Assembly (NCBI GenBank): GCA_002841595.1
Contig: PHAD01000014.1
Location: 1-36,916 of the forward strand
Origin: Firmicutes bacterium HGW-Firmicutes-12
GTDB lineage: Bacteria > Bacillota > Peptococcia > DRI-13 > PHAD01
DNA length: 36,916 nt
Reading direction: 5' to 3'
Under the pieces are notes generated by a model. That model did no database searches. It was given only the letters and a program-made list of their open reading frames with translations, and had not been told where the DNA came from. Positions 395 to 27,358 of the stretch are shown here, in pieces; within the stretch, counting starts at the first letter, position 1, and each line of letters starts with the position of its first letter. A program made the position numbers and the translations under genes.

Positions 395-3304
395 TTAGAT
401 ATCGGAAAAATATTTAAATATTACTTTTTTGAACTTCTCAATATCAATCGGCTTGGTCATATATTCTTCAAAACCAGCTTCTTTTCCTCTTATTATATCA
501 CGAGACATAGCATTTGCTGTTAAAGCAATCACCGGAATATCCTTTGTTTCCGGCAACATTTTTAAATGCTGCAAGAGCTCATAGCCATCAGTATCCGGTA
601 GATTTATATCTAAAATGATTAAATCAAATTTTTCTTTACTTACTAGCTCAAGGCTGGTTCTACCATTTTCTGCAAAATATACCTCCACCGATTTATAATC
701 CTTTATGATACGATGGACTAAATTTCGGTTTGCCGGATTATCTTCGACATACAGAACCTTTTTTACGCGAATACGTTCTTTATTATTTTTATCCTCGAAA
801 AATTCATAGGATGCATGGTCAAAGCATTTCTTGTTTTCTACATGAGGCAACTCAATCCAAAAATGACTACCTTCTCCTACTTTACTTTCTACGCCTATAG
901 AACCTCCCATTAACTCTATGAGCTGTTTAGCTACGGTTAGTCCGATCCCTGTGCCTTCACGATAGCTTTCCGCGGCATCTAGCCTATAAAAGGGATCAAA
1001 GATAGCCTCAAGCTCAGTATCTGGGATACCTATGCCTGTATCAACAAAATTAATACGCACTACCCCACCAATCTGTTCGCAATTGATTTTTACGCGACCC
1101 ATATCTTTATTATATTTAACTGCATTAGAAATAAGATTTAAAATCACCTGTTTAAACCTTGTACTATCAGCTTTAACATACTTACCTACACATTCAGATG
1201 CCAACGGTATTATTTCAACATTGTGTAATTTAGCTAAAGGCTTAATCAGTGCAATGGTTTCGTCAATAATTGGTTTTATCAAAACCGGCTCCAGAGATAC
1301 TGACATTTTCCCGGATTCAATTTTTGCCATGTCTAACACTTCATTTATTAGTATTAATAAATGCTTCCCAGCCTTTATTATCTCCTCCACACTTTCACTC
1401 TGAGACTCATTTAGCGGTGCAGTAGGGTCTACCTTTAATATTTGAGCAAAACCCAAGACTGAATTAAGCGGAGTTCTCAACTCATGACTCATGCTTGAAA
1501 GAAATTCTGATTTAGCATTACTAGCCTTTTCTGCTTCATCCTTGGCAGCAATCAGAGATTTTTCCATTTCAATGCGCTCGGTTATATCACGGGCACTTAT
1601 TGAGACCGTTCTCGTGGCATTAGAAATCAACGAAATTCGTGCTTGAAATGTTCGGAGTCCTTTTGGGGTTTGCAGGACATACTCAATCTTTTCCGTTTCC
1701 CCTGTTTCAATAACACGTTTGATTATACCAATATAGATATTAGCCATATTTTTTTTTTTAAAAGATGCCTCAAGGAGTTCTTCATCCTTGGCCCAGATAT
1801 TCAAACATTCTCCTTGTTCGTTAACTTTCATAATAACATCATCAATTGAATTAACAAGAGCCTGCAGGTCAGCTCCACGTTTTTTTAGCTCTTCTTGAAT
1901 ATCTATTAACTCTTGGTTCGTATTTCCTAGTTTTTCTCCCATTTTAATGAGTTTCAAGGCAGTCTCCTGCAATTCCACCACATCTAAGTCCGATATGTTT
2001 TGATAATAATCTCCTGCTCCAATTTTCTGTACAATTTGGTTGATTTTTAATAAAGGCTCAGAAATATTCAGACTCATTATTCTAGATTTTTTAAATAATA
2101 TTAGTAAAAATATACAATAGAAAAAAACCAACCCTGCAATCATAAAACTTCCAATCTTAAACAATTTACTACTCATCTCATTAACTCTTGAATAAATATT
2201 TTCTTCATTGACTATCAGTAACAACTTCCATCCTGTTTCTGGAACTGTTGTCCATGATACTACCTTATCATTTTGACCAATCAAAACATCTGAAAAACCA
2301 TTATTATTAGTGGCTACCTTCTGGGCTAATTCAGAAATTTCATTTCTTTTATAAAGATTGAATTGCTCCGGTTTGAACGTATCCTTCAAAATTGCTTCAT
2401 TGTAGTGATGATCAGTTAGTTCCGTAAGACCCCACTCACCCTCTCCCTTTTCTGGAAGAGCAAGAATAGTTCCATCCTTACCTACCAATACACCATAACC
2501 TTGCCAGGGAATATTTAGATTAAGCACCTGATTAGTAATTGTACTTACAGTAACATCAATACCAACTACTCCTTCTAGAAAATCACCATTATATACAGGT
2601 GCAATTGCTGAGGCCATCCAACCATGACCGGCAGGGTCCAAGTAGGCATCTGTCCACTTAACCACTTTTTGGGGATTATTTTTGGCATCTGCCTCATAAT
2701 AGAAGTTATATGAAGGTATGTCCATCAAGGGCGCATACTGAGAAATAACATCAAAATAGGGATAAATTATATTTAAGGAATCAAATGTATTAAGATATAT
2801 TGAGGCAGCTAAAGGTTGTGACTTTTGAATATCAATCATCAGCTCTTCGGTTGTCAAAACACAAGCTACCTTTTCCCTTTCAGTTTCTCCAATGGGTACA
2901 AATCCGCTGTAGAAAATCGCCACACCATCTTTTACTTTATCGCGAGTAGTATAATAAACTCCCTCAGGAGAATATGCAAGTCTAACAACATCCTCTGGAG
3001 CTAGCTTTGCAGGAGTCTGTAGTGCTCTAGCCGTTTGCTGTCGATATAGCTCTGTAGCATTTGTTATGCTGGTTATTTGTTGTTCAATTACATTACCTTC
3101 CTGCTCAGCTATCTGACTCAGTTCCATTTGAACCTCTTCACGCAAAAAACCCACCATTTCATTCTGCGACCAGTTATTAGTTACAAAATAAATGCCAATA
3201 AAAACCAACTCTACCAATATCAGTGGTATCAAGGCAGTCTTCAGATATGAATGCCAAATCCACTTAAATAACGTAGTTGCGTTCTTAGGTTCTGCTCTAT
3301 TCAT
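395..3304 (-). CDS. Hybrid sensor histidine kinase (Cache-PAS-HisKA-HATPase-REC)
   Basis: This is a membrane sensor kinase of 969 residues. One N-terminal membrane segment (about 22-45) precedes a roughly 330-residue extracytoplasmic domain resembling dCache. A second membrane segment follows (about 385-410), then a HAMP-like/coiled stretch and a PAS domain (about 480-590). The HisKA domain has the phospho-acceptor box SHELRTPLN. The ATPase domain has NLISNAVKYN, DTGIGIP and GTGIGL boxes, and the C-terminal receiver has acceptor Asp (LILDINLPD, about residue 899) and TKP lysine. ATG at 3304 is chosen because GGGAGG lies 5 nt upstream; a longer reading from TTG at 3325 has no such site. It is downstream of, and probably cotranscribed with, the HD-GYP gene, 58 bp apart. 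The signal is unknown; Cache domains usually bind small metabolites. Confidence 0.9.
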   Translation of the reverse strand: MNRAEPKNATTLFKWIWHSYLKTALIPLILVELVFIGIYFVTNNWSQNEMVGFLREEVQMELSQIAEQEGNVIEQQITSITNATELYRQQTARALQTPAKLAPEDVVRLAYSPEGVYYTTRDKVKDGVAIFYSGFVPIGETEREKVACVLTTEELMIDIQKSQPLAASIYLNTFDSLNIIYPYFDVISQYAPLMDIPSYNFYYEADAKNNPQKVVKWTDAYLDPAGHGWMASAIAPVYNGDFLEGVVGIDVTVSTITNQVLNLNIPWQGYGVLVGKDGTILALPEKGEGEWGLTELTDHHYNEAILKDTFKPEQFNLYKRNEISELAQKVATNNNGFSDVLIGQNDKVVSWTTVPETGWKLLLIVNEENIYSRVNEMSSKLFKIGSFMIAGLVFFYCIFLLILFKKSRIMSLNISEPLLKINQIVQKIGAGDYYQNISDLDVVELQETALKLIKMGEKLGNTNQELIDIQEELKKRGADLQALVNSIDDVIMKVNEQGECLNIWAKDEELLEASFKKKNMANIYIGIIKRVIETGETEKIEYVLQTPKGLRTFQARISLISNATRTVSISARDITERIEMEKSLIAAKDEAEKASNAKSEFLSSMSHELRTPLNSVLGFAQILKVDPTAPLNESQSESVEEIIKAGKHLLILINEVLDMAKIESGKMSVSLEPVLIKPIIDETIALIKPLAKLHNVEIIPLASECVGKYVKADSTRFKQVILNLISNAVKYNKDMGRVKINCEQIGGVVRINFVDTGIGIPDTELEAIFDPFYRLDAAESYREGTGIGLTVAKQLIELMGGSIGVESKVGEGSHFWIELPHVENKKCFDHASYEFFEDKNNKERIRVKKVLYVEDNPANRNLVHRIIKDYKSVEVYFAENGRTSLELVSKEKFDLIILDINLPDTDGYELLQHLKMLPETKDIPVIALTANAMSRDIIRGKEAGFEEYMTKPIDIEKFKKVIFKYFSDI

Positions 3305-3362
3305 AAAAACCTCCCATATATGCAAAAATCTTACGTGGCTTTTAAGTTAGGAGGGGTAAAGT

Positions 3363-4415
3363 TTATTCATACTTAGTTTGTATTTCTAGAATGGTAGGAA
3401 GTATTTCAAAAAACTTTTCCACCAGGTCCTCATCAAAATGTGATCCACTATTAGTCCTTATCTCTTCTAATGCTTTTTCTATAGGCCAGGCCTTTTTGTA
3501 AGGTCGCTCACTAACCAAAGCATCAAAGACATCACTTATTGCCGTTATTCTCCCTACTAATGGTATCTCCTCACCCTTCAATCCTTGTGGATATCCGGTT
3601 CCGTCCCATTTCTCATGATGTGTTAAAGCAATATCTTCAGCCATTCTTATCAATTCAAAACTACTACCTCTTAATATTTGTGCGCCTTTGGTAGTATGAG
3701 TCTTCATAATTTCCCATTCTTCCAGATTTAGCTTTCCAGGTTTTAGTAATATGCTGTCAGGGATTCCAACCTTACCAATATCATGCATGGTACTTGCATG
3801 CAATAACAAGTCAAGTTCCCCTTCGCTTAAACCCACAGCTTTACCCAATTCATAAGTAAAATAACTTATACGAATAATATGATTTGCTGTCTCATAATCA
3901 CGAAACTCTGAAGCAAGAACAAGCCGATGGATTAACTCCTGTTGTGCTTCTTGAAGGCCTTTGTTACATAACAATACATCCATCTCTAAATGTCTGTTAT
4001 ATTCCTTAGCTTCTTTATGTAATAGACTTATCTCCAATATGTTTTTAATCCTTATAATCACTTCCGTTTGATCAAAGGGCTTGCCAATAAAATCCTTTGC
4101 CCCTAGATCTAATGCTTTGATACGATTCTCATAATCATTTTGTGCTGTCACAATTAATACCGGAAGAATATAATCGATTTTCTCGCTTTTCAACTGTTCT
4201 AGAACCTGAAATCCATCCAAAACAGGCATTTTTAAATCTAATAGTATCAGATCTGGCTGTTCTTTTTTACAAATTTCTAAAACCTCTATAGAATGTGTTG
4301 TAGAAATAATATTAGTATAGTTAGAAATATTCAATAATTTCTTAAGTAATAGAATATTAGTAGGATTATCATCAACGATTAGTATCTTCGCATTGAGTAG
4401 TTTTTGATTGTCGAT
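3363..4415 (-). CDS. Response regulator with HD-GYP domain; no canonical start codon
   Basis: Predicted receiver plus c-di-GMP phosphodiesterase. The first ordinary start (TTG at 4334) would cut off the first receiver strand and its acidic pair. Extending the same frame upstream restores a perfect receiver beginning (AKILIVDDNPTNILLL) and reaches the in-frame stop TAA at 4416-4418. No ATG, GTG or TTG occurs at a plausible initiation site between that stop and the VDD motif. The codon right after the TAA is ATC (4413-4415), and GGTGG sits 5 nt before it, exactly where an ATG would be expected. The receiver has phospho-Asp in LILLDLKMPV. The HD-GYP domain (about residues 160-345) keeps MHDIGK, THHEKWDGTGYPQGL and ISDVFDAL, so it appears catalytically intact. 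It is the first gene of an operon with the downstream kinase. Translation may use the rare ATC start, or the base may be a mutation or an error. Confidence 0.8.
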   Translation of the reverse strand: MDNQKLLNAKILIVDDNPTNILLLKKLLNISNYTNIISTTHSIEVLEICKKEQPDLILLDLKMPVLDGFQVLEQLKSEKIDYILPVLIVTAQNDYENRIKALDLGAKDFIGKPFDQTEVIIRIKNILEISLLHKEAKEYNRHLEMDVLLCNKGLQEAQQELIHRLVLASEFRDYETANHIIRISYFTYELGKAVGLSEGELDLLLHASTMHDIGKVGIPDSILLKPGKLNLEEWEIMKTHTTKGAQILRGSSFELIRMAEDIALTHHEKWDGTGYPQGLKGEEIPLVGRITAISDVFDALVSERPYKKAWPIEKALEEIRTNSGSHFDEDLVEKFFEILPTILEIQTKYE

Positions 4416-4596: not shown

Positions 4597-5649
4597 TTAA
4601 ATATTAGTTCCCACAATTGCAGTAGCAAAATCCTCCGGTGTCACTCCTGGTGTGTCTATTTTTTCTTTCTGAATAAATAAAGTTATTACTTGTTTTATTT
4701 GTTCTTTCTCCATTTCTACATCTACTAGAGCTTCTTCCAGGTCTCTTACTTTTTCCTTAGGCAGAAAGGTAAAGTCACCGTACAAATTAACTTTCCCCAA
4801 TTTCTTTTCTTTCAATTCTATGATGCTATGAATAGTCCCTCCGACTGCCTTGTACCTATTCTCATAAACATGAATACCACTAGCTATTTTAATACTTGTA
4901 TTTTCTTTTCGTTTCCTACTAATAAATTCTTCAGAAGTATAAAGCTTTTCTAGTTCTCGTGCTTTATTCAAAACCTCCGTATTTAAACTTCCTTCTTCTA
5001 GTGGTCCGAAAAGTTCTGAAAAATGATGTATCAAACGATTTTCCACAAACTCGCGGGATGGGATTTGGCCCAGTTCTTTTTTGAGAGATGTAACATTGTT
5101 CTCTAATGTCTGTAGGATTTGCTGGCGGTATTCTTCATTGGGAACAGGAAACACCTTGCTCATTGTCTCAGTATCAAAGTCAAGCAATATACCGCCGACA
5201 AAAACCTTCGATTCTCCAATATTAGCTCCGCCCTCGCCGGTTATTTTCTTATTACCCTCGACAGTAATCAGGTCATTGACCTCTTTGAATCTTACCTTTA
5301 CGCCCAAATCACCATACGCCTTAATTACAGGCTCAGAGAACTTACGATATAGATCAAGAGCATCGCCTCTGGCTATCTCATTATCTTTGTGCAGGATTAT
5401 TTGAAAAAATATCTGATTACTGTCTAAAAGAGTAGTTCCTCCCCCTACTTCCCGACGCATCACTCCAAGGTTGGCTCTTTGGCAATAATCCAAATCTACT
5501 CCTGTTTTGGCGTCTTGAAAGTATCCTAGCGTGACTATCGGGTCACTAGGTGATACAAATACAAGTCCCTCAACTCCTAAATATGCCATAGCATGAAAAA
5601 CTGTCATAGCATCAAAACCCGGTAATTTACCTAGCCTATATAAATTCAT
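4597..5649 (-). CDS. Lipoate/octanoate-protein ligase, copy 1
   Basis: Member of the LplA/LipB/BirA-like ligase fold, 350 residues. The catalytic domain covers about 1-240 and is followed by an accessory C-terminal domain (about 245-345) like that of LplA-type ligases. Known members adenylate lipoate or octanoate and attach it to a carrier lysine. The adenylate-binding loop reads RREVGGG (65-71), where the family norm is RRxSGGG, so Ser is replaced by Val. The conserved active-site lysine is present in KITGEGG (K135). It is the last gene of the operon, 72 bp behind the second radical SAM gene, with AAGGAGAG before ATG at 5649. A paralogue with the standard loop lies upstream in the same operon. 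Together with the two radical SAM proteins it probably serves the GcvH-like carrier. Which acyl group each copy handles is unknown. Confidence 0.85.
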   Translation of the reverse strand: MNLYRLGKLPGFDAMTVFHAMAYLGVEGLVFVSPSDPIVTLGYFQDAKTGVDLDYCQRANLGVMRREVGGGTTLLDSNQIFFQIILHKDNEIARGDALDLYRKFSEPVIKAYGDLGVKVRFKEVNDLITVEGNKKITGEGGANIGESKVFVGGILLDFDTETMSKVFPVPNEEYRQQILQTLENNVTSLKKELGQIPSREFVENRLIHHFSELFGPLEEGSLNTEVLNKARELEKLYTSEEFISRKRKENTSIKIASGIHVYENRYKAVGGTIHSIIELKEKKLGKVNLYGDFTFLPKEKVRDLEEALVDVEMEKEQIKQVITLFIQKEKIDTPGVTPEDFATAIVGTNI

Positions 5650-5721
5650 AACTTCACTCTCCTTCCCTTTTTAACTCCACCTGAGTTAGTTAAAGCCATT
5701 CTAAAGGAGTCTTAGCACTGT

Positions 5722-6630
5722 TTAGCTATCGGATGAACTGCAGCACTCTTCCTTATATATCATCAACAGCCCTTTGGCCCTTGCATATTCAACCGTTTTT
5801 TCCGAGGGAAAAGCTATTGCATTTACTCCACAGTCTATAGCGATTTTTTCTAGTTCTTCTTTGTACACTCCTGCTGGTTTGATACACCCAAGATTAAGTA
5901 CACTTCCAGGAAACATTGTCCTAGCATGTTTCACTATCGAAGCCGCTTCGATTACGGTTAGTGGGTCTGTTCTTTCCATCGGCGTACCACGTATAGGTCT
6001 AAATACGACCAGTACCAAAACCCTCGGATCTGCTTTCCTAATCATTTCTAAGGCTAGATACTCTCCTTTAATCTTGCCAAAGTTTAACCCCAGCACAACA
6101 TGAGGTACAAAATCAAGGTCAACTTCACGGCAATTCATCATAGCCTCATAATAATCCTGTGGTTTACGCTCTAGATGATAGACATCCCTAATAGTACTCT
6201 CATCCCCAATTATATCCATTAGAACCTGATTTACACCAACTTCTTTTAAGACAATTGCTGTGGATTTACTTATAATTCCACAATGCGTCAGTACTTTCAA
6301 GCCTTTCTCTCGGGCATAGGCAATTCCTGGCGCGAAAGGGATTAACGGTACTTCGCCTTGATCATCACAACCTCCACTTACCAATACCCCCTTGCATCCT
6401 TTGGCTGCAAGGGTATCTATTACTGAGTAAAAATCACTTACAGATTCGGCCGCTATCATGCTTTCCAAAAGTTTACCCTGGCAATGAGCGCATCGGCAAC
6501 TGCATTTTGTGCCAGTTATACTGATATTAGCAAAAGAATTAGGAGAGTTTTTATAATACTCGCTTTCATAATACTTAGAACCCGGTACAGCGAAGTAGAT
6601 TTTTCTCGCCTCGACCGTAGTAGAATTCAT
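5722..6630 (-). CDS. Radical SAM protein, probable component of two-protein lipoyl synthase (LipS1/LipS2 type)
   Basis: This 302-residue protein carries the radical SAM cluster motif CxxxCxxC as C43, C47, C50 in KCSCRCAHCQG. An SGG-type SAM-binding turn (VLVSGGCDDQG) and a TIM-barrel-like pattern follow. Further cysteines (LTHCG, NCRE, LGCIKP, IDCG, and a C-terminal CC) could hold an auxiliary cluster. Its start overlaps the stop of the upstream radical SAM gene (ATGA, 6627-6630), so the two are translationally coupled, as expected for a two-subunit enzyme. Both lie between two lipoate ligase genes. In archaea and many sHdr-bearing bacteria, the paired radical SAM proteins LipS1 and LipS2 together insert the two sulfurs of lipoate. 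I infer that role from context and architecture, and cannot decide which of the two names applies here. Confidence 0.75.
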   Translation of the reverse strand: MNSTTVEARKIYFAVPGSKYYESEYYKNSPNSFANISITGTKCSCRCAHCQGKLLESMIAAESVSDFYSVIDTLAAKGCKGVLVSGGCDDQGEVPLIPFAPGIAYAREKGLKVLTHCGIISKSTAIVLKEVGVNQVLMDIIGDESTIRDVYHLERKPQDYYEAMMNCREVDLDFVPHVVLGLNFGKIKGEYLALEMIRKADPRVLVLVVFRPIRGTPMERTDPLTVIEAASIVKHARTMFPGSVLNLGCIKPAGVYKEELEKIAIDCGVNAIAFPSEKTVEYARAKGLLMIYKEECCSSSDS

Positions 6631-7667
6631 AAGCTTACCTGGGAACGTATTAAGGTAATATCATCTGGTTCTGGGATAAACGGATAGTTTCGAAAGGGCT
6701 TACTCGGTCTTTCATTGCCGAAAGGACGGTTACAGGCTAAGAAACCGTCTACTCCGGGACAACCGGAAGTCATAAAGGCTAGACCTTGTTCTATATAAGG
6801 CTCTATATCTATACCGTATCCAATAATTCTCTCGTCCGAATCATATTCTACGTGCGAACCAGTAATTAGACCCTCATTAATAAGGTAGCGCGCCAGCTGA
6901 ATACGACGATAATTTTCTAGTGAGGGCTGAACAACATCGGCCATCTGGCTACCCGCTTCTGGAAAAAAGGAGAACAGATGCGTTAAAGCCCCTAACCTTT
7001 GAGCCCTATCAATAACAGTGACCATTTCCTTCTCTGTCTCTTTAAGACCTACTATTAGATGTACCCCTACATAGTATTTGCCAAATATTTCTATAGCTTC
7101 TTCCACCGCATCCCAGTAACGTTCCCATCTATGCGGTCCAAGTACATTAGTACCACGAAATTTCTCAAAGAGAGACTTCGTTGCAGCATCAACTGCAATC
7201 CCGACTCGATCGGCGCCAGCTTCTTTTACTGCAGCCATATCAATTTTACCTTTCATCACAGTTGGTGTAAGAAGTCCACTGATCGGCAAATTTGTTCTCT
7301 CTTTACATTTACGGATTATTGTTAAGGTATCTTGCATAGCCTGCGGATGAGTAGTCATAGAAACACAGATCCTCTTAAAAGGATGGTCCTTAGCTTCTAC
7401 AGCATCTAACACATCATCTAATGAATAAACCGGCCATTTCACTCGTATAAAGGTAGGCTTGGCCTGACTATCCCGGCTACAGGATAATCCACAGTAACTG
7501 CATTTTGCTGCACAGCCACTTTCATATGTTAAAAGTAAATTTAAACAGTTGCATTTTGCATCTCGACTAAATCGTCCATTCTCCATGCCCAGACATATAG
7601 CACCCGCAAGGCTGGTTTTGATAAATGTGGGACTCTCTTTTACACTCAAAACCCTATCCCCTTTCAT
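6627..7667 (-). CDS. Radical SAM protein, probable partner component of two-protein lipoyl synthase (LipS1/LipS2 type)
   Basis: A 346-residue radical SAM protein with CxxxCxxC as C52, C56, C59 in ESGCAAKCSYCG. It is preceded by a CNC pair (C39, C41) and followed by C63, and there are two further cysteines near the C-terminus in TSGCPGVDGFLACNRP. These extra cysteines fit auxiliary Fe-S clusters of the sulfur-donating kind found in lipoyl and biotin synthases. A biotin-synthase-like reading by automatic annotation would not be surprising. It is coupled to the next radical SAM gene by an ATGA overlap. ATG at 7667 has only a weak upstream AGGATAA. A TTG at residue 7, preceded by AAAGGGG, is an alternative start. 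The proposed role is sulfur insertion at C6 or C8 of the octanoyl chain on the GcvH-like carrier, based on the flanking ligase genes. Confidence 0.75.
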   Translation of the reverse strand: MKGDRVLSVKESPTFIKTSLAGAICLGMENGRFSRDAKCNCLNLLLTYESGCAAKCSYCGLSCSRDSQAKPTFIRVKWPVYSLDDVLDAVEAKDHPFKRICVSMTTHPQAMQDTLTIIRKCKERTNLPISGLLTPTVMKGKIDMAAVKEAGADRVGIAVDAATKSLFEKFRGTNVLGPHRWERYWDAVEEAIEIFGKYYVGVHLIVGLKETEKEMVTVIDRAQRLGALTHLFSFFPEAGSQMADVVQPSLENYRRIQLARYLINEGLITGSHVEYDSDERIIGYGIDIEPYIEQGLAFMTSGCPGVDGFLACNRPFGNERPSKPFRNYPFIPEPDDITLIRSQVSL

Positions 7668-7700
7668 GTTTATCCTATACCTTTATCTTTGGTTTCCACA

Positions 7701-7732
7701 AGACTCCCTCTTCAACATAGTAAGAGGGGTCT
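7701..7732 (-). other. Intercistronic hairpin between ligase copy 2 and the radical SAM pair
   Basis: The arms agactccctctt (7701-7712) and aagaggggtct (7722-7732) pair with a one-base bulge around a 9-nt loop. No T-run follows on either strand, so it is unlikely to be a full terminator. An mRNA processing or stability element, or a partial attenuator, is possible. Confidence 0.5.
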
Positions 7733-7759
7733 ACGTTTATCCGCCAAAATTAAACTTAA

Positions 7760-8827
7760 CTAATAAGTGTTTACAGCTGCTTTCAGAGCCGCAATCATAT
7801 CCTCTGCCGTCACTCCAGGAATCTTTACATCAGGTTTTGCGAAAAATCTCATTACATTTTCCTCCATTTTTTCCGTCCTGACTGATGTGTTTTTCAAGGC
7901 GGCTTCTAAATCTAAAATACAATTTTCCGGATAGGCAAAAAAATCCCCAGTAATAAATACACTCTTAATAAGCTGACGTGCTCTATCCATAACGAGGGAA
8001 ACACGTATTAGACCTCCTGGAGCTTTATAATCAATTAACTGTAAACTGCTAGCTTGCTTAATGCTCCTAGTATCTCTAATCCATTCTTCAGACATAAACC
8101 GGGGTAATTCCTTTTCGAATAGAGCCTTTTCTTCTTCTGTAAGCCTTCCCGGAACAAGTTTAATACCAAGAACTTCGCTAAACCCTTCAACCATCGCTTC
8201 CTTAATTTCCTCTATAGGTGGCAGGTCTCCTAGCAATTCTTTAAGACTGACTACTCTCTTCTTAAAAGTATCTACCTGTTTGTCATCTAGTTTTTTTAAG
8301 GGTAGCTTTAGACAGTTAATCATTGTTTCAACACTAAAATCAGTCAATAATGTACCATGAAAAATAAAAGAATTGGCATACTCACTGCCACCGGTGCCTG
8401 ATATTTTACGACCGTCTACCTCAATATCATTTATCGGTCGATACCTTGCAGTTACTCCCAACTTAGCTATCCCAGCAATGGCGCATTCACACAGCAACTT
8501 ATACATATCGTTCAAATTCTGCGGAATTCCTGGTGTATCCTTTAAAGCAGTGACTTCCCAGCCTAACTGTCCTTCATCCATGTAAATGCATCCTCCGCCG
8601 GAAATGCGCCTATTAATTTCTATATTATGTTGTTTGCAATATTCTTCTTCAATTTCAAGCTCAACAGCCTGGTGATAACCCACCAGGGCATTATGGGGTT
8701 TAAACTGTAACAAATGTAACGTATTAGGAGCCCAGTTGTTATGTCGAGAATTCAAAAGAACCCACTGTAGTGTCATATTGTGGGAGGCAGGAAGAGGACC
8801 GGTATCTAATAAGCGCCATTCTTTCAT
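7760..8827 (-). CDS. Lipoate/octanoate-protein ligase, copy 2
   Basis: A 355-residue ligase of the LplA fold, paralogous to the copy at the end of the operon and with the same two-domain layout. Here the adenylate loop is canonical, RRISGGG (73-79), and the catalytic lysine is K141 in RKISGTGG. An accessory C-terminal domain follows from about residue 250 to the end. GAGGTGAT precedes ATG at 8827. The gene sits between the hydrogenase fusion and the radical SAM pair, separated from the hydrogenase by a strong hairpin. Known relatives attach lipoate or octanoate to E2, GcvH or LbpA-type carriers. The only lipoyl carrier visible here is the GcvH-like protein of the same operon, so that is the likely target. 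Whether it uses free lipoate (salvage) or octanoate (for the radical SAM pair) cannot be read from sequence. Confidence 0.87.
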   Translation of the reverse strand: MKEWRLLDTGPLPASHNMTLQWVLLNSRHNNWAPNTLHLLQFKPHNALVGYHQAVELEIEEEYCKQHNIEINRRISGGGCIYMDEGQLGWEVTALKDTPGIPQNLNDMYKLLCECAIAGIAKLGVTARYRPINDIEVDGRKISGTGGSEYANSFIFHGTLLTDFSVETMINCLKLPLKKLDDKQVDTFKKRVVSLKELLGDLPPIEEIKEAMVEGFSEVLGIKLVPGRLTEEEKALFEKELPRFMSEEWIRDTRSIKQASSLQLIDYKAPGGLIRVSLVMDRARQLIKSVFITGDFFAYPENCILDLEAALKNTSVRTEKMEENVMRFFAKPDVKIPGVTAEDMIAALKAAVNTY

Positions 8828-8884
8828 TAAAATATCACCTCATCTTAATTCATGCAGTATCAAATAATTAAGCTCCTATGTAAA

Positions 8885-8912
8885 GGACCGCAGGCACCTA
8901 TACCTGCGGTCC
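8885..8912 (-). other. Strong intercistronic hairpin after the hydrogenase gene
   Basis: Perfect 10-bp arms, ggaccgcagg (8885-8894) and cctgcggtcc (8903-8912), flank an 8-nt loop 14 bp beyond the hydrogenase stop codon. On the minus strand only TTTA follows. It therefore looks like a leaky terminator or 3-prime stabiliser that could set a lower level for the downstream lipoylation genes than for the redox genes. Confidence 0.65.
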
Positions 8913-8925
8913 CGAAACCACGAAA

Positions 8926-10896
8926 CTATTTAATGCTTCGTTCTACATAATGAGTATGCAGCAGATGATGGGAAAGCTCTGAACATGGTTTTTCTAGGAA
9001 GTCAGAATAAATCTGTTTTATCTCCTGATTATCATGCGATTTGCGCAACGGCTGATCCTTATCATCCTTGTTGAGGCCCTGTGTTCTAGCCATAGCCTTT
9101 ACAACGTTGGTGGTAATTATCTGTCCACCTCCGCCTACACAGCCACCGGGGCAAGTCATTACCTCGATAAAGTGATACTTAGAGAATTCCCCGCCCTTTA
9201 GAATATCTTCACAGATCATACGCGCGGTCTTTAAGCCAAAAGCTACTGCAACCTTCACTTCATTACCACCAACAGGAAGAGCCGCAGTCTTTAAGCCGTT
9301 GTATTCTCCTAAGGCTTCTAGCTCTATATCACCTAATGGCTTTCCTTCTACTACTTCATAGGCTGTTCTTAGGGCCGCAGTCATAACCCCTCCGGTTCGA
9401 CCAAAGATTGTTGCTGCCCCTGTATAATCGCCTAACAGTAAGTCCGGCTTTCCATCTGGCATTTCCATTAGGTTGATATTTAGCAATTTGAAGAGCTTAG
9501 CGCATTCTCTGGTTGTCAGAACAGCATCTACATCGGGATAATCACCTGACTCACCGTGTTTTGACCAATAATGCGCAGCATCTTTAAATTCATCCCTGCT
9601 CTTTTCATACTTTTTAGCAGTACATGGCATTACGGATACTACATACATATTAGCCGGGTCTACCTTTATTTTATCAGCAGCATAGGTCTTGGCTACCGCC
9701 CCAAACATTTGCTGTGGTGACTTGGCACTAGATAAGTTTGGCATTAAGCTTGGGTAATAGGTCTCAACAAATTTAACCCAGGCAGGACAACAGGAGGTAA
9801 ACTGCGGTAATGTTTTGTTATTGCTCAAACGGTCAATTAACTCAAATCCTTCTTCCATGATAGTTAAGTCTGCTGAGTAGTTGGTGTCCCAGATTCGATC
9901 AAATCCCGCTTGTTTTAGTGCAGAGTAAAGCTTTTCTGTAACGATCGTGCCCGGTTGGGCTCCAAATTCCTCGCCAATGGTTGCCCTTACAGCAGGTGCC
10001 ATTTCTACTACTACATATTTATCTGGGTCTTTTAATGCAGCCAAGACTTTGTTAACCTCATCATTTTCTGTTATGGCTCCTATGGGACGTGAATAGGGAC
10101 AGGATTTACAATCTAGCCATTCTTTGACGAGCTGTACGGTTTTTTCTTGGAAGCCCAAAGGACAATTCATGACGCATTGTCCACAGCGTACACATTTGCT
10201 CTCGTCTAGAAGAATGCCTTCTTTTTCATCCATCTGGAGTGCTTCTACCCCTTGAGCTTTACAGGCTTCTACACAACTCCCACAGCGAATACACTTGTTG
10301 GGATCATAGAATATAGAGGGTTCCATCCGCTTAGACTCCAAAGTCCAATTCCTGCGTTCTTCTAAGTTGATCATTTCTGAAGAGGCTGCCTCACAAGCCG
10401 CAAATTCCTGTATTTTTCTAATAACGGAACACTCTTTCGTGCTCTTAACATCGCTATCTTTTTCCAGCGGACAAAATCTTTTTTTGTCTAGTTTAAGCGG
10501 TCCTAATTCACGGATGGTCTTGGCAAAATCATTCATTACCTGTGCATATTTTTCACCCTCAGACGCAGATATCCAGTGGAGCTGGAGCCGTTCTTTTTCT
10601 ATGCCTAATTCCTCGAGCAAGGGTTGGAATATTTCATAACGGGCTAGGGCTTTGAAGTTACCGCTGGTATAGTGACAGTCTGACGGGATATGACATCCTG
10701 CTATTATTACGCCATCTGCTCCTTCTTGGAAGGCTTTGATGACGAAGCTCGGTTCCACTCGTCCGGAGCACATTACTCTAATGGCTCGGACACTGATGTC
10801 GTGATGATTCCGTGATGTACCGGCTAGGTCTCCTCCTGCATAGGAACACCAGTTGCATAAGAACCCTACTAATTTTGGTTTAAATTCGCTGCTCAT
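8926..10896 (-). CDS. MvhD-ferredoxin-[FeFe]-hydrogenase fusion protein
   Basis: A 656-residue fusion. Residues 1-135 are an MvhD domain (the HdrA-docking [2Fe-2S] subunit of methanogen hydrogenase) with C14, C17, C43, C68 and C74. Residues 200-250 hold two [4Fe-4S] motifs (C202-C212 and C235-C245), and another CxxC pair lies at 263-266. Residues 295-600 are an [FeFe]-hydrogenase catalytic domain with all three H-cluster signatures: TSCCPAW (367-373), PCTAKKYE (424-431) and CPGGCVGGG (582-590). The tail resembles the small-subunit domain. The start is ATG at 10896, overlapping the HdrA stop as ATGA and preceded by GGGGTGGAG. A longer frame to 11091 only overlaps HdrA. The fusion ties H2 turnover directly to HdrA. 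The reaction is probably proton reduction or H2 oxidation via HdrA flavin; whether it bifurcates electrons is unproven. Cytoplasmic: no signal peptide. Confidence 0.92.
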   Translation of the reverse strand: MSSEFKPKLVGFLCNWCSYAGGDLAGTSRNHHDISVRAIRVMCSGRVEPSFVIKAFQEGADGVIIAGCHIPSDCHYTSGNFKALARYEIFQPLLEELGIEKERLQLHWISASEGEKYAQVMNDFAKTIRELGPLKLDKKRFCPLEKDSDVKSTKECSVIRKIQEFAACEAASSEMINLEERRNWTLESKRMEPSIFYDPNKCIRCGSCVEACKAQGVEALQMDEKEGILLDESKCVRCGQCVMNCPLGFQEKTVQLVKEWLDCKSCPYSRPIGAITENDEVNKVLAALKDPDKYVVVEMAPAVRATIGEEFGAQPGTIVTEKLYSALKQAGFDRIWDTNYSADLTIMEEGFELIDRLSNNKTLPQFTSCCPAWVKFVETYYPSLMPNLSSAKSPQQMFGAVAKTYAADKIKVDPANMYVVSVMPCTAKKYEKSRDEFKDAAHYWSKHGESGDYPDVDAVLTTRECAKLFKLLNINLMEMPDGKPDLLLGDYTGAATIFGRTGGVMTAALRTAYEVVEGKPLGDIELEALGEYNGLKTAALPVGGNEVKVAVAFGLKTARMICEDILKGGEFSKYHFIEVMTCPGGCVGGGGQIITTNVVKAMARTQGLNKDDKDQPLRKSHDNQEIKQIYSDFLEKPCSELSHHLLHTHYVERSIK

Positions 10897-12857
10897 ATGC
10901 TCTCCACCCCCTCTAATAGAGCCTCTATCTCTGCAAATATTTGATCTGTAGAGAATTGTTGCTGTTTGATTGCTCCCGCCGGACAAGCCGCGGCACAGGT
11001 TCCGCAACCTTTGCATTTGGCACTTTCTACTTCCATTATTTTGCTTTCTTCGTTGAATTCTAATGCTCCGTATGGGCACAGTTTCTGACAAAGCCTGCAG
11101 CCTTTGCAGATATCAGGATTAATTTGTACGATAGTTGATTCTAGTTTTACTTTACCGATATTCAGTAACTTTATTGTTTCTCCAGCACAGCCTTTTGCTT
11201 GACAGACGGTATCAGGGATATCTTTTGGACCCTGGCTACATCCGGCCACATATATTCCGGCTGTTGGTGTTTCGAGTGGATTGAGTTTTGGATGAGCTTC
11301 CATAAAGAAGCCATCTTGGGAGCGATTGATATGCAGAACCTCAGAAAGTTTGTCAGCATCTTCACAATTTTCTAGTCCAATTGAGAGTATTACCATATCA
11401 ACTCCTAGCTCCATATTTTTACCCAGGAGTGTATCCTCTGCTTTGACCTTAAGCTGTCCTTCTTTTTCGACTATTTCTGCTACTTTGCCTCTGATGAAGC
11501 GGACTCCTTCTCCTTGGATCCTTTGATAGAATTCTTCGTAGCCTTTGCCAAATGCTCTCATATCCATATAGAAGTTGTAAACCTCGGCATCTGTTTTTTC
11601 TTTGGCCAAGTGAGCGTGCTTCAAGGAATACATACAGCATACTCTAGAACAATGTCGATTGGTGTTTACATCTCTACTTCCTACACAGTGGATGATGGCT
11701 ACTTTTTTGGGCTTTTCTCCTTTTGAGGTGAGGACTTTTCCTCCGGTTGGGCCTGATGCGTTGGTCATTCTTTCAAATTGCATGGCATCGATAACATCGG
11801 GATAGCGACCATAGCCATATTTGCTTACTTTTTTAGCATCAAAAGGTTTGAAGCCAGTAGCAACTATGATTGCTCCTACTTCTATTTGTATTTCTTCTTC
11901 TTTTTGAGAAAAATCTATGCAGTTTCTTTCACAAGCTGTGACGCAAGCTTGTTTGCATTTGCCTGTTTTGAACATGAGACAGTTTTCTTGGTCTACTACT
12001 GCTTTTAATGGTACTGCTTGGGGGAAGGGTATATAGATGGCTCCTCGTTTAGCCAGACCATAATCGAATTCACTGGGTATCCGCCCTTTCATGACGCAGG
12101 CACTGACACAATCCCCACAACCGCTGCAATCATCTTTAACATAACGCGGTTTTTTCTTTACGGTTACGGTGTAGTTCCCCACTGCTCCGTCTAGTCCTAC
12201 TACTTCGGCATTGGTTATGAGTTCAATATTCGCCTCACGAGCCACATCTACCATTTTAGGTGTCAAGATACAAGCAGAACAGTCCAAGGTCGGAAAGGTT
12301 TTATCAAGCTGAGCCATAACCCCACCAATAGTCGGCTTTTTCTCGACTAGATAGGTTTTATAGCCGGCTTTGGCTACGCTTAAGGCGGCTTCTATTCCAG
12401 CAACACCTCCTCCGATTACGAGGGCCGCTCGTTTAATCCCTATTTCTTGAGGTACGATAGCTTCTTGATGGATAACTCTTTTGGTTGCTGCTCGTACGAG
12501 ATCTTTGGCTTTTTCGGTTGCTTTTGGTGTATCATTGGTAATCCAGGAGACATGCTCGCGGATATTTGCCATTTGCATGAAATATGGGTTAAGTCCACTT
12601 TCTTCTACTACTGTTCGAAAGGTAGGCTCATGCATCCTTGGTGAACAGGAGGCCACTACTATTCTATTGAGTCCTAGGTTCTTGATATCTTCTTTGATTA
12701 GTACTTGACCAGGATCTGAACACATGTATGCATAATCTCTTGATACGACTACATTAGGTAGGTTGGCTGCATATTCTGCTACTTCTTTACAATCAACGAC
12801 GCCACCGATATTGCTTCCGCAGTGACATACATATATTCCTATCTTTACTTCGTTCAT
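10893..12857 (-). CDS. hdrA: HdrA, heterodisulfide-reductase-type flavin/Fe-S subunit
   Basis: A 654-residue HdrA of the usual length. It has an N-terminal CHCG (11-14), an FAD GxGxxG motif (GGGVAG, 149-154) and the HdrA hallmark LDCSACILTPKM. A ferredoxin-like CSGCGDCVSAC insert, a further cysteine-rich segment (CKQACVTACERNC) and two C-terminal [4Fe-4S] motifs (CKGCRLCQKLCP, CKGCGTCAAACP) complete it. In methanogens and relatives, HdrA carries the bifurcating flavin that joins HdrBC, MvhD and ferredoxin. Here it is coupled by ATGA overlaps to the CCG protein upstream and to the MvhD-hydrogenase fusion downstream, exactly the partners such a subunit would need. That coupling argues for one stoichiometric complex. 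Electron direction and bifurcation are inferred, not visible. Confidence 0.93.
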   Translation of the reverse strand: MNEVKIGIYVCHCGSNIGGVVDCKEVAEYAANLPNVVVSRDYAYMCSDPGQVLIKEDIKNLGLNRIVVASCSPRMHEPTFRTVVEESGLNPYFMQMANIREHVSWITNDTPKATEKAKDLVRAATKRVIHQEAIVPQEIGIKRAALVIGGGVAGIEAALSVAKAGYKTYLVEKKPTIGGVMAQLDKTFPTLDCSACILTPKMVDVAREANIELITNAEVVGLDGAVGNYTVTVKKKPRYVKDDCSGCGDCVSACVMKGRIPSEFDYGLAKRGAIYIPFPQAVPLKAVVDQENCLMFKTGKCKQACVTACERNCIDFSQKEEEIQIEVGAIIVATGFKPFDAKKVSKYGYGRYPDVIDAMQFERMTNASGPTGGKVLTSKGEKPKKVAIIHCVGSRDVNTNRHCSRVCCMYSLKHAHLAKEKTDAEVYNFYMDMRAFGKGYEEFYQRIQGEGVRFIRGKVAEIVEKEGQLKVKAEDTLLGKNMELGVDMVILSIGLENCEDADKLSEVLHINRSQDGFFMEAHPKLNPLETPTAGIYVAGCSQGPKDIPDTVCQAKGCAGETIKLLNIGKVKLESTIVQINPDICKGCRLCQKLCPYGALEFNEESKIMEVESAKCKGCGTCAAACPAGAIKQQQFSTDQIFAEIEALLEGVESI

Positions 12858-14023
12858 TTTGCTTCACCCCCGGTGGTTGTATCTATTCTCTCGGCTATGA
12901 ATTCTAGGAGATCATACACTTTTAGGCGTGCTCTATTTTTCCTTACTGCGTTTTGCAGGGTCCGTTTGCATTGCTGGCAGGTTGTTACTAGGTATTGGGC
13001 GTTGGTTTCCATGGCTTCTGCGACTCTTTTTTGGGCTATTTCTAAGGATAATTCGGAATTTGTCATTTCTAGGTTGCCACCACCGCCACAGCATTTGCTG
13101 TCTTTTCCGGTAAAGCGCATCTCCACAAGCTTAACCCCGGGTAGTAATCTGATAAGTTCACGTGGTTCTTCGATTACGTCCGATTTTCTACCTAGATCAC
13201 AGGGATCATGGTAGGTTATGGTTACTTCATCTGTTTTGAATTGGATATTGCCCTGTTTGATTAGCTCCGGCAAATACTCAGTATAGTGTTTGATTTCTAT
13301 TTGGTGTTGCTTACCCAAGTTCGAATATTCGTTCTTCCAGACGTGATAACAAGTCGGGCAGCTAACTAGCAAGGTCTTAGCTCCCTTGGCTTTTACTACT
13401 TCGATATTATGTGCAGCAAAATCTTTGATGGAATCTTCTCCGCAACCTGCGGCCAGCTTGGGATAACCACAACACCATTCATCTTCTCCGAGTAAGGAAA
13501 AGTCGATGCCACCTTTTAGTAGTATTCGTGTTAAGGATTGCGGAATTTTGTAGGCTTGCGGGAATAGGGCACTCACACAGCCGGTAAAATATACTACCTC
13601 CGCTTGATCTTTTACAAGCTTTTCACGTTCTTCTAAAGTAATATCAGGTATGTTTTCTGTCCAGAGCAGTCTGTTTTTAGGTTCATCTCCGGTTATGCTC
13701 TTGGTTAGGTTTAGAATTGTGGTCATTTGCTGCATTGATCCATAGGGACCATTTTTTTCAAGATATCTTTCGCGTAGCTCCATTATTATTTTATTAAGTG
13801 GTATCCCTCTGGGGCACCTAATCTCACACATGGAGCAAGTAGTACACTGCCAGAATAGCTCTGTTGACATTGCTTCTTCAACTAGTCCCATTTGCAGCAT
13901 TCTCCAAAGCTGTCTCCTTGTTAAGTCTAGGTTATCAGCACCGGGGCAGCTGCTACTGCAGCTGCCGCACTGAATACAGGTCATTATTTCATGAAGGATA
14001 TCCTTTTCTGCTGCCACTTCCAT
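12854..14023 (-). CDS. HdrD/HdrBC-like CCG-domain Fe-S protein, copy 2 (HdrA-side)
   Basis: A 389-residue fusion of an HdrC-like ferredoxin part and two CCG (HdrB-like) domains. The [4Fe-4S] motifs lie at C16-C26 and C60-C70. The CCG cluster-binding sets are YFTGC, EWCCGYP, SCPTC and then HDPCD, SKCCGGGG, TCQQC, all intact. CCG domains of HdrB bind the non-cubane clusters that cleave the CoM/CoB disulfide. ATG at 14023 is chosen because GGAAGGGG lies just before it; the upstream GTG at 14062 has none. The stop overlaps the HdrA start (ATGA), so this copy is the likely HdrBC partner of HdrA. It is clearly a paralogue of the other CCG protein in the operon, sharing the CQQCKRTLQNA tail. Automatic pipelines may call it a glycolate oxidase subunit, but its neighbour is HdrA. 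Confidence 0.88.
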   Translation of the reverse strand: MEVAAEKDILHEIMTCIQCGSCSSSCPGADNLDLTRRQLWRMLQMGLVEEAMSTELFWQCTTCSMCEIRCPRGIPLNKIIMELRERYLEKNGPYGSMQQMTTILNLTKSITGDEPKNRLLWTENIPDITLEEREKLVKDQAEVVYFTGCVSALFPQAYKIPQSLTRILLKGGIDFSLLGEDEWCCGYPKLAAGCGEDSIKDFAAHNIEVVKAKGAKTLLVSCPTCYHVWKNEYSNLGKQHQIEIKHYTEYLPELIKQGNIQFKTDEVTITYHDPCDLGRKSDVIEEPRELIRLLPGVKLVEMRFTGKDSKCCGGGGNLEMTNSELSLEIAQKRVAEAMETNAQYLVTTCQQCKRTLQNAVRKNRARLKVYDLLEFIAERIDTTTGGEAK

Positions 14024-14077
14024 ATTATTTCCCCTTCCTTCAACACATTTATATTTATTCACTTAGCTTTAACGAGT

Positions 14078-14509
14078 TTACTTTTTTGTTCCTTCTTTTA
14101 TTTTCCTATCTTCCTCTTCAATATAGGCGGTATATTCGTCTCCCGGACTTAATAAATCTTTAATCTCTTCAGCATCACTAGGTTTGATTTTAATTATCCA
14201 ACCTTCTTCATAAGAGCTTTCATTAAGCAAATAGGGGAAATCCGTTAGTTCCGAATTCACTTCAACAATCTCACCACTAACCGGGGCTTTGAGACGTCCT
14301 ACCCATTTACCAGATTCTATTGAAGAATATGGCTGCCCCTTTTCTACTTTTCTTCCCACCAGGGGCATTTCAATAAAGATAATTTCTCCGGCAAGCTTTT
14401 GGAAATAATCTGTTACTCCAGCTATGATAAGATCACCTTCTTCTTTAGCCCACCCATGTTCTTTGTCATAAAGCAGTTCCTCAGGAAACTGGTACCCTAA
14501 GATATCCAT
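14078..14509 (-). CDS. GcvH-like lipoyl carrier protein (LbpA-like role proposed)
   Basis: A 143-residue GcvH-family protein with the lipoyl hairpin at YSSIESGKWVGRLKAPVSGE. K68 is the predicted lipoylation site. Typical GcvH proteins have ESVKAASD-type sequence here, so the residues after the lysine (WVGRL) differ. The family shuttles an aminomethyl group in glycine cleavage. LbpA relatives instead serve the sHdr sulfur-oxidation complex. No gcvP, gcvT or lpd is present in the window. The gene stands between two paralogous CCG-domain genes, and the operon also encodes ligases and probable lipoyl synthase components. I infer a dithiol/disulfide carrier working with the CCG proteins. GGGAGAAAG precedes ATG at 14509. 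Glycine cleavage with genes elsewhere on the chromosome remains the alternative. Confidence 0.88.
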   Translation of the reverse strand: MDILGYQFPEELLYDKEHGWAKEEGDLIIAGVTDYFQKLAGEIIFIEMPLVGRKVEKGQPYSSIESGKWVGRLKAPVSGEIVEVNSELTDFPYLLNESSYEEGWIIKIKPSDAEEIKDLLSPGDEYTAYIEEEDRKIKEGTKK

Positions 14510-14551
14510 AATACTTTCTCCCTTCCATTCTTATATTTAGTTTCCAAATCT

Positions 14552-15709
14552 TTAATTCCTCAAGTTTTCTTTAACCATTTCATTAAGCTCCATAATCTTA
14601 ATCCTGGCCCTCATCTGTCGTGCCGCATTTTGCAAGGTACGTTTACATTGTTGACAGCTCGTAACCAGTATGGTGGCACCAGTATTGATTGCTTGTTTGA
14701 TTCGTTCCTGAGCAACTTGGCTACTCAACTCGGCATCATTCATTTCGAGATTTCCACCACCTCCACAGCACATTGCACTCAAACGATTAAATTTCATTTC
14801 ACGTAGTTCTACCCCCGGAATGCTGGTCAATATTTCACGCGGCGCATCAAAAATACCACTTTTTCTACCCAAATCGCAGGGGTCATGGTATGTCACTACT
14901 AATTTTTTTTCATTGAATTGCAGTTCATTTTTGTTAGTCAATTCCTGTAGTAGCACACTAGCATGCACTACTTCTATTGGTTCATCCGTTTCTACTAGTT
15001 CAGGATAATAATCCTTCCACATGTGATAGCAGGATGGACATGTCGTAACAACTTTTTTGATACCAAGCTCCTTAAGCTTATTAATGTTTTTAAGGGCTGC
15101 TATTTTAGCTTCTTCTCGCATCCCTCCCATCAGAAGAGGATATCCACAACATATTTCCTCAGCACCAAGCAAAGTAAAGGAAACTCCAGCATTGCTTAAA
15201 ATAGTGACAAAAGCTTGCGGTATGCTGTACGAAGATGGATATAAGGTTGGTACACAACCGGCTAAGTAGGCATATTCTGCAGGTTCATTTACTTTTAGCC
15301 CCTTTAGTGGTTCTGCCATATTCTCTAACCAGAGCATCCGGTTAGCAGGTGCATCACCTGTTATATTACCAACTGCTGCAACACTGTCCTTTACATTTTT
15401 GAGTACTCCGGTCACACCTTTTTGCGCAACACATTCTTCGCGCATGGCAGTAATAATCTTTTCCGCTTCTACCCCTGGTGGGCAAAACTGACTGCAGTTC
15501 CCACACAACAAGCACTGGTTCATCCTCTTCATAAAGAGATCACTAAACTCTTCAATTCTTCCATCCAGAGCAGCAGACACCAGTTCAATTCGTCCCCGTG
15601 CTACAAACGGTTCAATTCTGGAGACTTTAAAAGTAGGGCAATAGTATTGACAATTACCACACTTTGAACACTTACTGATCATCTCTTTGTATTCTTTAAG
15701 CTCTTTCAT
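14552..15709 (-). CDS. HdrD/GlcF-like CCG-domain Fe-S protein, copy 1 (dehydrogenase-side)
   Basis: A 385-residue protein with two [4Fe-4S] motifs (C14, C17, C20, C24 and C66, C69, C72, C76) and two complete CCG domains (AGC, EICCGYP, TCPSC; then HDPCD, AMCCGGGG, SCQQC). It is paralogous along its whole length to the CCG protein on the other side of the GcvH gene. It follows the GlcD-type dehydrogenase gene directly, the same pairing as GlcD-GlcF and LldF-type electron-accepting subunits. It probably takes electrons from the flavin dehydrogenase. ATG at 15709 is chosen because GGGGGAG lies 7 nt upstream; an upstream ATG at 15745 in the same frame has no such site. In methanogens HdrD-type proteins act on a disulfide, so the lipoyl carrier encoded next is a plausible partner. 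Confidence 0.88.
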   Translation of the reverse strand: MKELKEYKEMISKCSKCGNCQYYCPTFKVSRIEPFVARGRIELVSAALDGRIEEFSDLFMKRMNQCLLCGNCSQFCPPGVEAEKIITAMREECVAQKGVTGVLKNVKDSVAAVGNITGDAPANRMLWLENMAEPLKGLKVNEPAEYAYLAGCVPTLYPSSYSIPQAFVTILSNAGVSFTLLGAEEICCGYPLLMGGMREEAKIAALKNINKLKELGIKKVVTTCPSCYHMWKDYYPELVETDEPIEVVHASVLLQELTNKNELQFNEKKLVVTYHDPCDLGRKSGIFDAPREILTSIPGVELREMKFNRLSAMCCGGGGNLEMNDAELSSQVAQERIKQAINTGATILVTSCQQCKRTLQNAARQMRARIKIMELNEMVKENLRN

Positions 15710-15758
15710 TATTATTCTCCCCCATTTTCTATTTCGGATAAGCAATCAATATGCTCAC

Positions 15759-17153: not shown

Positions 17154-17171
17154 GCTTTTTCCCCTCCTTTA

Positions 17172-26433: not shown

Positions 26434-26467
26434 CTTTTTACTATCACCTCTTTTTGGATACTAGTCG

Positions 26468-27313: not shown

Positions 27314-27358
27314 GTTGCGTTCCCCCGTTTATCTATCAGATACCTTCGGTTTTTTACA

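Follow-up and report, generated by a model that had tools for sequence, protein, structure and literature searches.

Lipoate serves as the cofactor of the 2-oxoacid dehydrogenases and of glycine cleavage and, since 2018, is also known to take part in sHdr sulfur oxidation. A group of lipoylation genes at the end of a redox operon of the anaerobe Firmicutes bacterium HGW-Firmicutes-12 raises the question of which protein these genes serve, and what a lipoyl group could do next to a hydrogenase. The operon lies within the window, i.e., the whole stretch of 36,916 nucleotides analysed here (contig PHAD01000014.1).

Organization of the operon

The operon extends on the minus strand from 17876 to 4597 and encodes, in order, a GntR regulator, a GlcD-type dehydrogenase, a first CCG protein (CCG1), a GcvH-like carrier, a second CCG protein (CCG2), HdrA, a FlpD-[FeFe] hydrogenase fusion and, as its terminal part, the four-gene lipoylation cassette LplA1-LipS2-LipS1-LplA2 (8827 to 4597). 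The genes share one direction and are separated by gaps of at most 98 nt, with several overlaps, which fits a single transcription unit; a scan for promoters and terminators returned sites no more numerous than in shuffled sequence and hence neither supports nor breaks this reading. The first gene (17172–17876) encodes a regulator of the GntR/FCD family (PF00392, 65 bits; PF07729, 79.1 bits). The initial annotation had described a coupled radical SAM pair between two LplA-type genes, in an operon encoding a lipoyl carrier. Indeed, all four reading frames were recovered in this arrangement, and a GcvH-family protein is encoded at 14078–14509. A misbinned contig was rejected, as the rest of the window agrees in composition with the genome's other contigs. 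A plasmid collection gave no match.

A probable two-protein lipoyl synthase and two ligase-like proteins

The reading frames of lipS2 (6627–7667, 346 aa) and lipS1 (5722–6630, 302 aa) overlap by 4 nt. LipS1 passes the cut-off of its family model (NF053742, 234.7 bits against 230), while LipS2 has NF053743 as its best family by far at 223.5 bits, under the curated cut-off of 270. Profile assignment of the pair, suggested at the outset as a check, is thus obtained in full for LipS1 and, for LipS2, as best family below the threshold; the LipS2 of a Syntrophomonas relative is likewise under the cut-off, at 235.1 bits. All the cluster positions named for LipS1/LipS2 of T. kodakarensis (PMC9585515) have candidate counterparts in the window pair, matched by order and spacing rather than by direct alignment. 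In particular, C43xxxC47xxC50 of LipS1 and C52xxxC56xxC59 of LipS2, together with the candidate auxiliary-cluster ligands C249, C296, C297 and H177 of LipS1 and C101, C303 and C312 of LipS2, are invariant across 12 relatives. The window and T. kodakarensis proteins therefore share both families and the radical SAM motifs, but differ in the last two LipS2 cysteines, which are 9 residues apart in the window and 3 in the T. kodakarensis numbering, and in the ligases, which are one-chain proteins in the window (PMC9585515). Identity with BioB was ruled out (LipS1, 32.6 bits against a BioB cut-off of 225); among solved structures, the only relative of LipS1 is a distant biotin synthase and LipS2 has none. 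The family scores, the cluster residues and the lack of LipA in the genome bear out the earlier proposal of a two-protein lipoyl synthase rather than LipA. As LipS2 is 46 bits short of its cut-off, the pair might instead belong to a neighbouring radical SAM family and have another function, with the ligases loading scavenged lipoate. This is very unlikely, since each protein keeps the residues of both clusters, LipS1 is above its cut-off, and the pair adjoins LplA and shares an operon with the carrier in a genome devoid of LipA.

The flanking ligases, LplA1 (7760–8827, 355 aa) and LplA2 (4597–5649, 350 aa), both comprise the catalytic domain, the RRxxGGG and catalytic-lysine motifs and the C-terminal domain. 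PF21948 and PF10437 are found in each (158 bits for PF21948 in LplA1; 108.8 and 33.4 bits in LplA2), with intact motifs RRISGGGCIYMD and KISGTG in LplA1, and RREVGGGTTLLD and KKITGEG in LplA2. The PDB relatives of both are lipoate-protein ligases. Neither reaches the TIGR00545 equivalog cut-off of 280 (151.4 and 121.3 bits), so their domains place them in the family, without an assignment to the classical LplA equivalog.

A single detectable client in the genome

The genome is a MAG, 96.8% complete, so a gene that seems to be absent may fall within a gap; the searches for LipA, LplA/LipB, GcvH, biotin/lipoyl and GcvP/GcvT families were each positive in control genomes. LipA (TIGR00510) had no match in the window's own genome, compared with 12 of 14 positive control genomes, and no LplA/LipB-type enzyme was found there outside the window. 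The single PF03099 match lies on a contig (C99) that also encodes a biotin carrier, and is presumably BirA. Exactly one GcvH-like protein is encoded, i.e., the carrier of the operon, and the sole other biotin/lipoyl domain belongs to a biotin carrier with EAMKM; no lipoyl E2 was found, and GcvP (PF02347) and GcvT (PF01571) had no match in the genome. A LipT-like reductase was also not found, in a genome search that had no positive control. Thus, no lipoylation route other than the cassette, and no client other than the carrier, is detectable in this genome. The search for a classical lipA or lipB elsewhere, raised by the initial annotation, came out negative, and its suggestion of a modification system dedicated to one carrier is strengthened.

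The carrier (PF01597, 131.9 bits) has a putative acceptor lysine, K68, within IESGKWVG, and lacks any cysteine. A Trp follows the lysine (KW) in 46 of the 57 GcvH-like proteins of LipS1/S2-type loci, the window carrier included. With 115.9 bits it falls right at the TIGR00527 cut-off of 115.85, so that the family score alone does not tell whether it is a true H protein; what sets it apart is the absence of GcvP and GcvT from the genome. That the carrier is an ordinary glycine-cleavage H protein, with the cassette as its lipoylation pathway, would agree with this equivalog score but is extremely improbable, given the missing partners, the position of the gene between two CCG genes and the GKW motif in place of VK[AGT]. 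The glycine-cleavage reading was accordingly rejected.

The redox modules

CCG2 (12854–14062) combines an HdrC-like ferredoxin part with two HdrB-like CCG domains (PF02754 twice), and carries two C..CC[GA]..CxxC and two CxxCxxCxxxC motifs. CCG1 (14552–15745) is a second HdrC-HdrB-like protein, again with two PF02754 domains, and its HdrB-type motifs are as complete as those of CCG2. HdrA (10893–12857) matches NF040770 with 855.5 bits over positions 1–642 of the 777 of the model and stays under the cut-off of 1100 because the C-terminal FlpD part of HdrA2 is on the next protein. Indeed, the FlpD domain is absent from HdrA and fused to the hydrogenase instead, in a protein of 655 aa (8926–10893) that matches model positions 647–774. 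This fusion contains the FlpD (MvhD) domain at residues 9–131 (PF02662, 160 bits), the [FeFe] hydrogenase domain at 292–589 (PF02906, 299.5 bits) and PF02256, and carries TSCCPAW, MPCTAK and FIEVMTCPGGCVGG. The GlcD-type FAD 2-hydroxyacid dehydrogenase (15759–17153; PF02913, PF01565) scores 531.4 bits against TIGR00387, below the equivalog cut-off of 567.9, and its substrate is therefore uncertain.

The presence of an HdrA, two HdrC-HdrB-like fusions, a carrier, Lpl and LipS1/S2 resembles sHdr clusters (PMC6067878, PMC10332631), and the carrier might accordingly serve an sHdr-like sulfur oxidation, handling sulfur rather than only electrons. However, two cysteines are conserved in most LbpA proteins, some archaeal LbpAs being exempt (PMC6067878), and the window carrier has none; in addition, GlcD and a hydrogenase are encoded in the operon, whose HdrA is of the HdrA2 type. 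A role in sHdr is thus quite improbable, and membership in sHdr was rejected on the missing LbpA-type cysteines.

A proposed lipoyl-dependent electron pathway

From the gene content we infer the lipoylation of the carrier, its role, the wiring of the modules, the substrate and the direction. It is fairly likely that the cassette provides a complete lipoylation pathway for a single client and that the lipoyl group carries electrons between GlcD with one CCG protein and the other CCG protein with HdrA and the FlpD-[FeFe] hydrogenase. LplA1, perhaps with LplA2, would put octanoate or lipoate on K68, and sulfur would be inserted at C8 and C6 by LipS2 and then LipS1. Cycling between dithiol and disulfide, the lipoyl group would then carry electrons, and its disulfide would replace CoM-S-S-CoB at the non-cubane clusters of both HdrB-like CCG proteins, one of which may be wired to the GlcD-type dehydrogenase (of the lactate or glycolate class) and the other to HdrA. 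From HdrA, electrons would pass to FlpD and to the [FeFe] hydrogenase on FlpD's own chain. The probable task of the carrier is thus electron transfer between a hydroxy-acid dehydrogenase and a complex that handles H2, rather than glycine breakdown.

As for direction, 2-hydroxyacid oxidation may be linked to the formation of H2 by confurcation, where reduced ferredoxin would be the energetic co-donor; alternatively, the pathway may run in reverse. In the latter case, the [FeFe] hydrogenase would oxidise H2 and HdrA would bifurcate electrons to ferredoxin and to the lipoyl carrier, from which a 2-oxoacid would be reduced by the GlcD-type enzyme. HdrABC-MvhAGD does bifurcate electrons in the H2-oxidising direction, all the parts are reversible redox modules, and the sequence itself is compatible with either direction. 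Conversely, GlcD-family enzymes normally oxidise 2-hydroxyacids, and the GntR/FCD regulator alongside fits a substrate-induced catabolism, so that the reverse run appears unlikely. It is plausible, at slightly less than even chances, that a soluble HdrA-FlpD-[FeFe] hydrogenase complex joining 2-hydroxyacid oxidation to H2 depends on the lipoyl protein as its obligate disulfide substrate and electron carrier, and that the host makes lipoate for nothing else, using archaeal-type enzymes encoded in the same operon.

The only detectable lipoyl protein of a genome being encoded in an Hdr-hydrogenase operon argues for a wider service of lipoyl proteins to HdrB-like enzymes, as protein-bound stand-ins for CoM-S-S-CoB; this would explain HdrA-type electron bifurcation in bacteria without coenzymes M and B. 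It also provides a clean natural test, since removal of the cassette would be expected to change one protein only.

Comparison with known systems

In methanogens, HdrABC-MvhAGD similarly combines HdrA, FlpD/MvhD and HdrBC-like modules, with FlpD joining the hydrogenase. The window differs in that the hydrogenase is [FeFe] rather than [NiFe] and is fused to FlpD, no [NiFe] MvhAG-type partner being present in the operon, and in having GlcD and a probable lipoyl disulfide in place of CoM-S-S-CoB. For Culexarchaeia, it has been suggested that the lipoyl disulfide of GcvH meets HdrB; their Ehe cluster, like the window, encodes GcvH together with Hdr proteins (HdrA2B2C2 in that case), but with a membrane [NiFe] hydrogenase, SdhA and CdhA (PMC9723716). 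The sLpl(AB)-LipS1/LipS2 pathway of Hyphomicrobium and Thioalkalivibrio (PMC10332631) shares Lpl, LipS1/LipS2, a GcvH-like carrier and Hdr-like genes, whereas the window has two ligases, a cysteine-free carrier, a hydrogenase and GlcD, and neither sHdr nor a detected LipT. The occurrence of LipS1/S2 in a non-sHdr redox operon, put forward by the initial annotation, is supported, but LipS1/S2 in organisms beyond sHdr, Firmicutes among them, had already been published (PMC10332631). What is new here is the link of cassette and carrier to HdrA and the FlpD-[FeFe] hydrogenase fusion: this linkage was found in no other sampled genome of the class or phylum, and a search of a literature collection returned nothing on FlpD with HdrA and [FeFe], or on GcvH with Hdr, glycolate oxidase and hydrogenase.

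LipS1/S2 and LplA are recurrently linked to GcvH-like, HdrB-like CCG and GlcD-like genes in other genomes, including Syntrophomonas, Smithella, Desulfosporosinus, Sporomusa, Deltaproteobacteria and archaea. Four such clusters were compared, from Syntrophomonas sp. DTU018, Smithella, Desulfosporosinus and Sporomusa malonica (L058, L074, L086 and L136), and contain GcvH - GlcD-like - CCG - GcvH - LplA - LipS2 - LipS1. Like the window, they combine carrier, CCG and FAD oxidase genes, but with two carriers, one CCG protein and often a LipT-like gene; HdrA or hydrogenase had no match in the compared stretches. Unlike the window, all but the Smithella cluster adjoin a dehydrogenase E2 with lipA and/or lipB. 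The window's LipS1/S2 pair has its nearest relatives in the Syntrophomonas and Smithella clusters. GlcD is more distant in these clusters, with about 130 bits against TIGR00387 in Syntrophomonas compared with 531 in the window.

Operon layout and lipoylation enzymes

The window is contig C185 of a 189-contig, 2.78-Mb genome (96.8% complete), and it carries an operon of eleven genes that runs unbroken on the minus strand from a GntR/FCD regulator (17172-17876) to the ligase gene LplA2 (4597-5649), in the order GntR, GlcD, CCG1, GcvH-like, CCG2, HdrA, FlpD-[FeFe] hydrogenase, LplA1, LipS2, LipS1 and LplA2. CCG2 overlaps HdrA and LipS2 overlaps LipS1, HdrA abuts the hydrogenase start, and the widest intergenic gap is 98 nt. 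The terminal cassette from LplA1 to LplA2 (4597-8827, minus strand) was confirmed as described in the initial annotation. The operon has a GC content of 0.415, versus 0.384 for the genome, and its tetranucleotide correlation with the genome is 0.940, versus 0.981 for the remaining window. Since this composition deviates and no LipS1 above cut-off occurs in 15 sampled genomes of the same class, the operon (4597-17876) was probably acquired horizontally. Past the downstream end of the cassette, the same strand of the window also encodes a hybrid histidine kinase together with a response regulator of the HD-domain type (395-4334).

The reading of the radical SAM pair as LipS1/LipS2-like is supported by LipS1, which scores 234.7 bits against an NCBI equivalog cut-off of 230, and by LipS2, whose best family is LipS2 (223.5 bits, below the cut-off of 270). 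Similar scores were obtained for the Syntrophomonas sp. DTU018 relatives (LipS1 227.6 bits, LipS2 235.1 bits), thus the pair appears to represent a lineage that has diverged to some degree, not an isolated outlier. A tree built from LipS1 and LipS2 of 79 loci places the window on a long branch within the Syntrophomonas/Smithella/Syntrophaceae group (support 0.73). In Thermococcus kodakarensis, LipS1 has the radical SAM motif C27/C31/C34 and likely auxiliary-cluster ligands C230, C276 and C277 with H159, and LipS2 has C39/C43/C46 and C85, C276 and C279 (PMC9585515). By order and context rather than direct alignment, these pair with C43/47/50, C249, C296, C297 and H177 of the window LipS1 and with C52/56/59, C101, C303 and C312 of LipS2, all invariant in 12 relatives. 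The last cysteine pair of LipS2, however, is 9 residues apart in the window and 3 in T. kodakarensis. A SufB/SufD-core and ABC-ATPase gene pair, of the SUF minimal type of iron-sulfur assembly, lies on the same contig (28791-30435); systems of this kind could restore the auxiliary clusters that LipS1/S2 sacrifice.

Both ligases have the LplA catalytic and C-terminal domains, RRxxGGG and the catalytic-lysine motif, and neither reaches the classical LplA equivalog cut-off. They may belong to the separate archaeal-derived ligase clade that travels with LipS1/S2 (PMC10332631). In several loci of archaea and bacteria, LplA2-like genes lie immediately ahead of a gene for a GcvH-like protein, so LplA2 probably belongs to the system rather than being surplus to it.

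A single detectable client

Family searches of the genome gave no match to LipA, which was matched in control genomes, and exactly two LplA/LipB catalytic domains, both within the cassette; one further BPL-type protein (contig C99) is presumably the biotin ligase. The same searches found exactly one GcvH and neither GcvP nor GcvT, and the one other biotin/lipoyl domain is a biotin carrier with EAMKM. Thus, within 96.8% completeness, the operon holds all detectable lipoylation enzymes of the organism and their only detectable client, which strengthens the earlier proposal of a modification system dedicated to one carrier.

The carrier (14078-14509, minus strand) has its acceptor lysine, K68, in IESGKWVG and contains no cysteine. 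Among 57 GcvH-like proteins of LipS1/S2 loci, a few from duplicate records, the acceptor lysine is followed by Trp in 46 and by Phe in 3, versus 8 with the VK[AGT] form of solved H proteins. The KW form mostly accompanies loci that include CCG, GlcD-like or Hdr genes or in which LplA, LipS2 and LipS1 are tightly grouped, and GKW/AKW is a possible signature of redox carriers.

Proposed wiring to the hydrogenase

In each of the two HdrC-HdrB-like proteins, CCG1 and CCG2, the HdrB-type cysteine motif occurs twice and is complete both times, and there are also two ferredoxin motifs. HdrA aligns with positions 1-642 of the HdrA2 model; the FlpD domain, which covers positions 647-774, is instead found at the start of the hydrogenase chain, in which H-cluster motifs are present. 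The hydrogenase was set at 8926-10893 because FlpD homology begins just past the start codon at 10893 (the listed ORF starts at 11091, TTG). As FlpD is the known link between hydrogenase and HdrA in HdrABC-MvhAGD, the fusion fits direct wiring to HdrA. At the thresholds used, no match covering the FlpD part was found in other genomes among 46 of the class and 398 of the phylum, and a search of one literature library found no paper on an N-terminal FlpD domain in an [FeFe] hydrogenase with HdrA lacking FlpD. GlcD scores strongly (531.4 bits) but below the equivalog line of 567.9, and is therefore assigned by sequence no further than a putative 2-hydroxyacid dehydrogenase of the glycolate/lactate class. 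Elsewhere in the window, the C-terminal part of a fumarase and a partner resembling fumarase (25876-28585) adjoin a malic enzyme; with GlcD, these could fit glyoxylate use via malate.

The genes, their motifs and the lack of detectable alternatives are direct observations, from which we infer the remaining steps. Octanoate or lipoate would be ligated to K68, and sulfur would be inserted by LipS2 and then LipS1, an order taken from PMC9585515. The HdrB-like clusters would use the lipoyl disulfide, with electrons passing along GlcD - CCG1 - lipoyl carrier - CCG2 - HdrA - FlpD - hydrogenase and ferredoxin acting at HdrA. Since established redox potentials make the path from 2-hydroxyacid to H2 uphill, catabolism would most naturally run with reduced ferredoxin as a co-donor; electron flow may also go the opposite way. 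An encounter of the GcvH lipoyl group with HdrB has already been proposed for Culexarchaeia (PMC9723716), and LipS1/S2 outside sulfur oxidisers have been published (PMC10332631); what is new here is the single-client genome and the proposed FlpD-[FeFe] hydrogenase wiring.

LipS1/S2 loci in other genomes

In the LipS1/S2 loci retrieved by a collection-wide scan, a theme recurs: GcvH - GlcD-like - CCG - (LplA2) - GcvH - LplA1 - (LipT-like reductase) - LipS2 - LipS1. A deltaproteobacterial locus (L129) has CCG - GcvH - CCG - LplA - LipT-like - LipS1 - LipS2, and in an archaeal one (L132) HdrA/FlpD adjoins LipS1 - LipS2 - GcvH. LipS1/S2 thus accompany carriers and HdrB-like proteins beyond sHdr as well, and the window is a hydrogenase-linked variant of this association. 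In Syntrophomonas sp. DTU018 (L058), L079, Desulfosporosinus (L086) and Sporomusa malonica (L136), the theme adjoins a dehydrogenase E2 with lipA and/or lipB. These four loci carry a second lipoyl-redox module (GcvH - GlcD-like - CCG - GcvH - LipS2 - LipS1), which might oxidise dihydrolipoyl groups of the adjacent E2.
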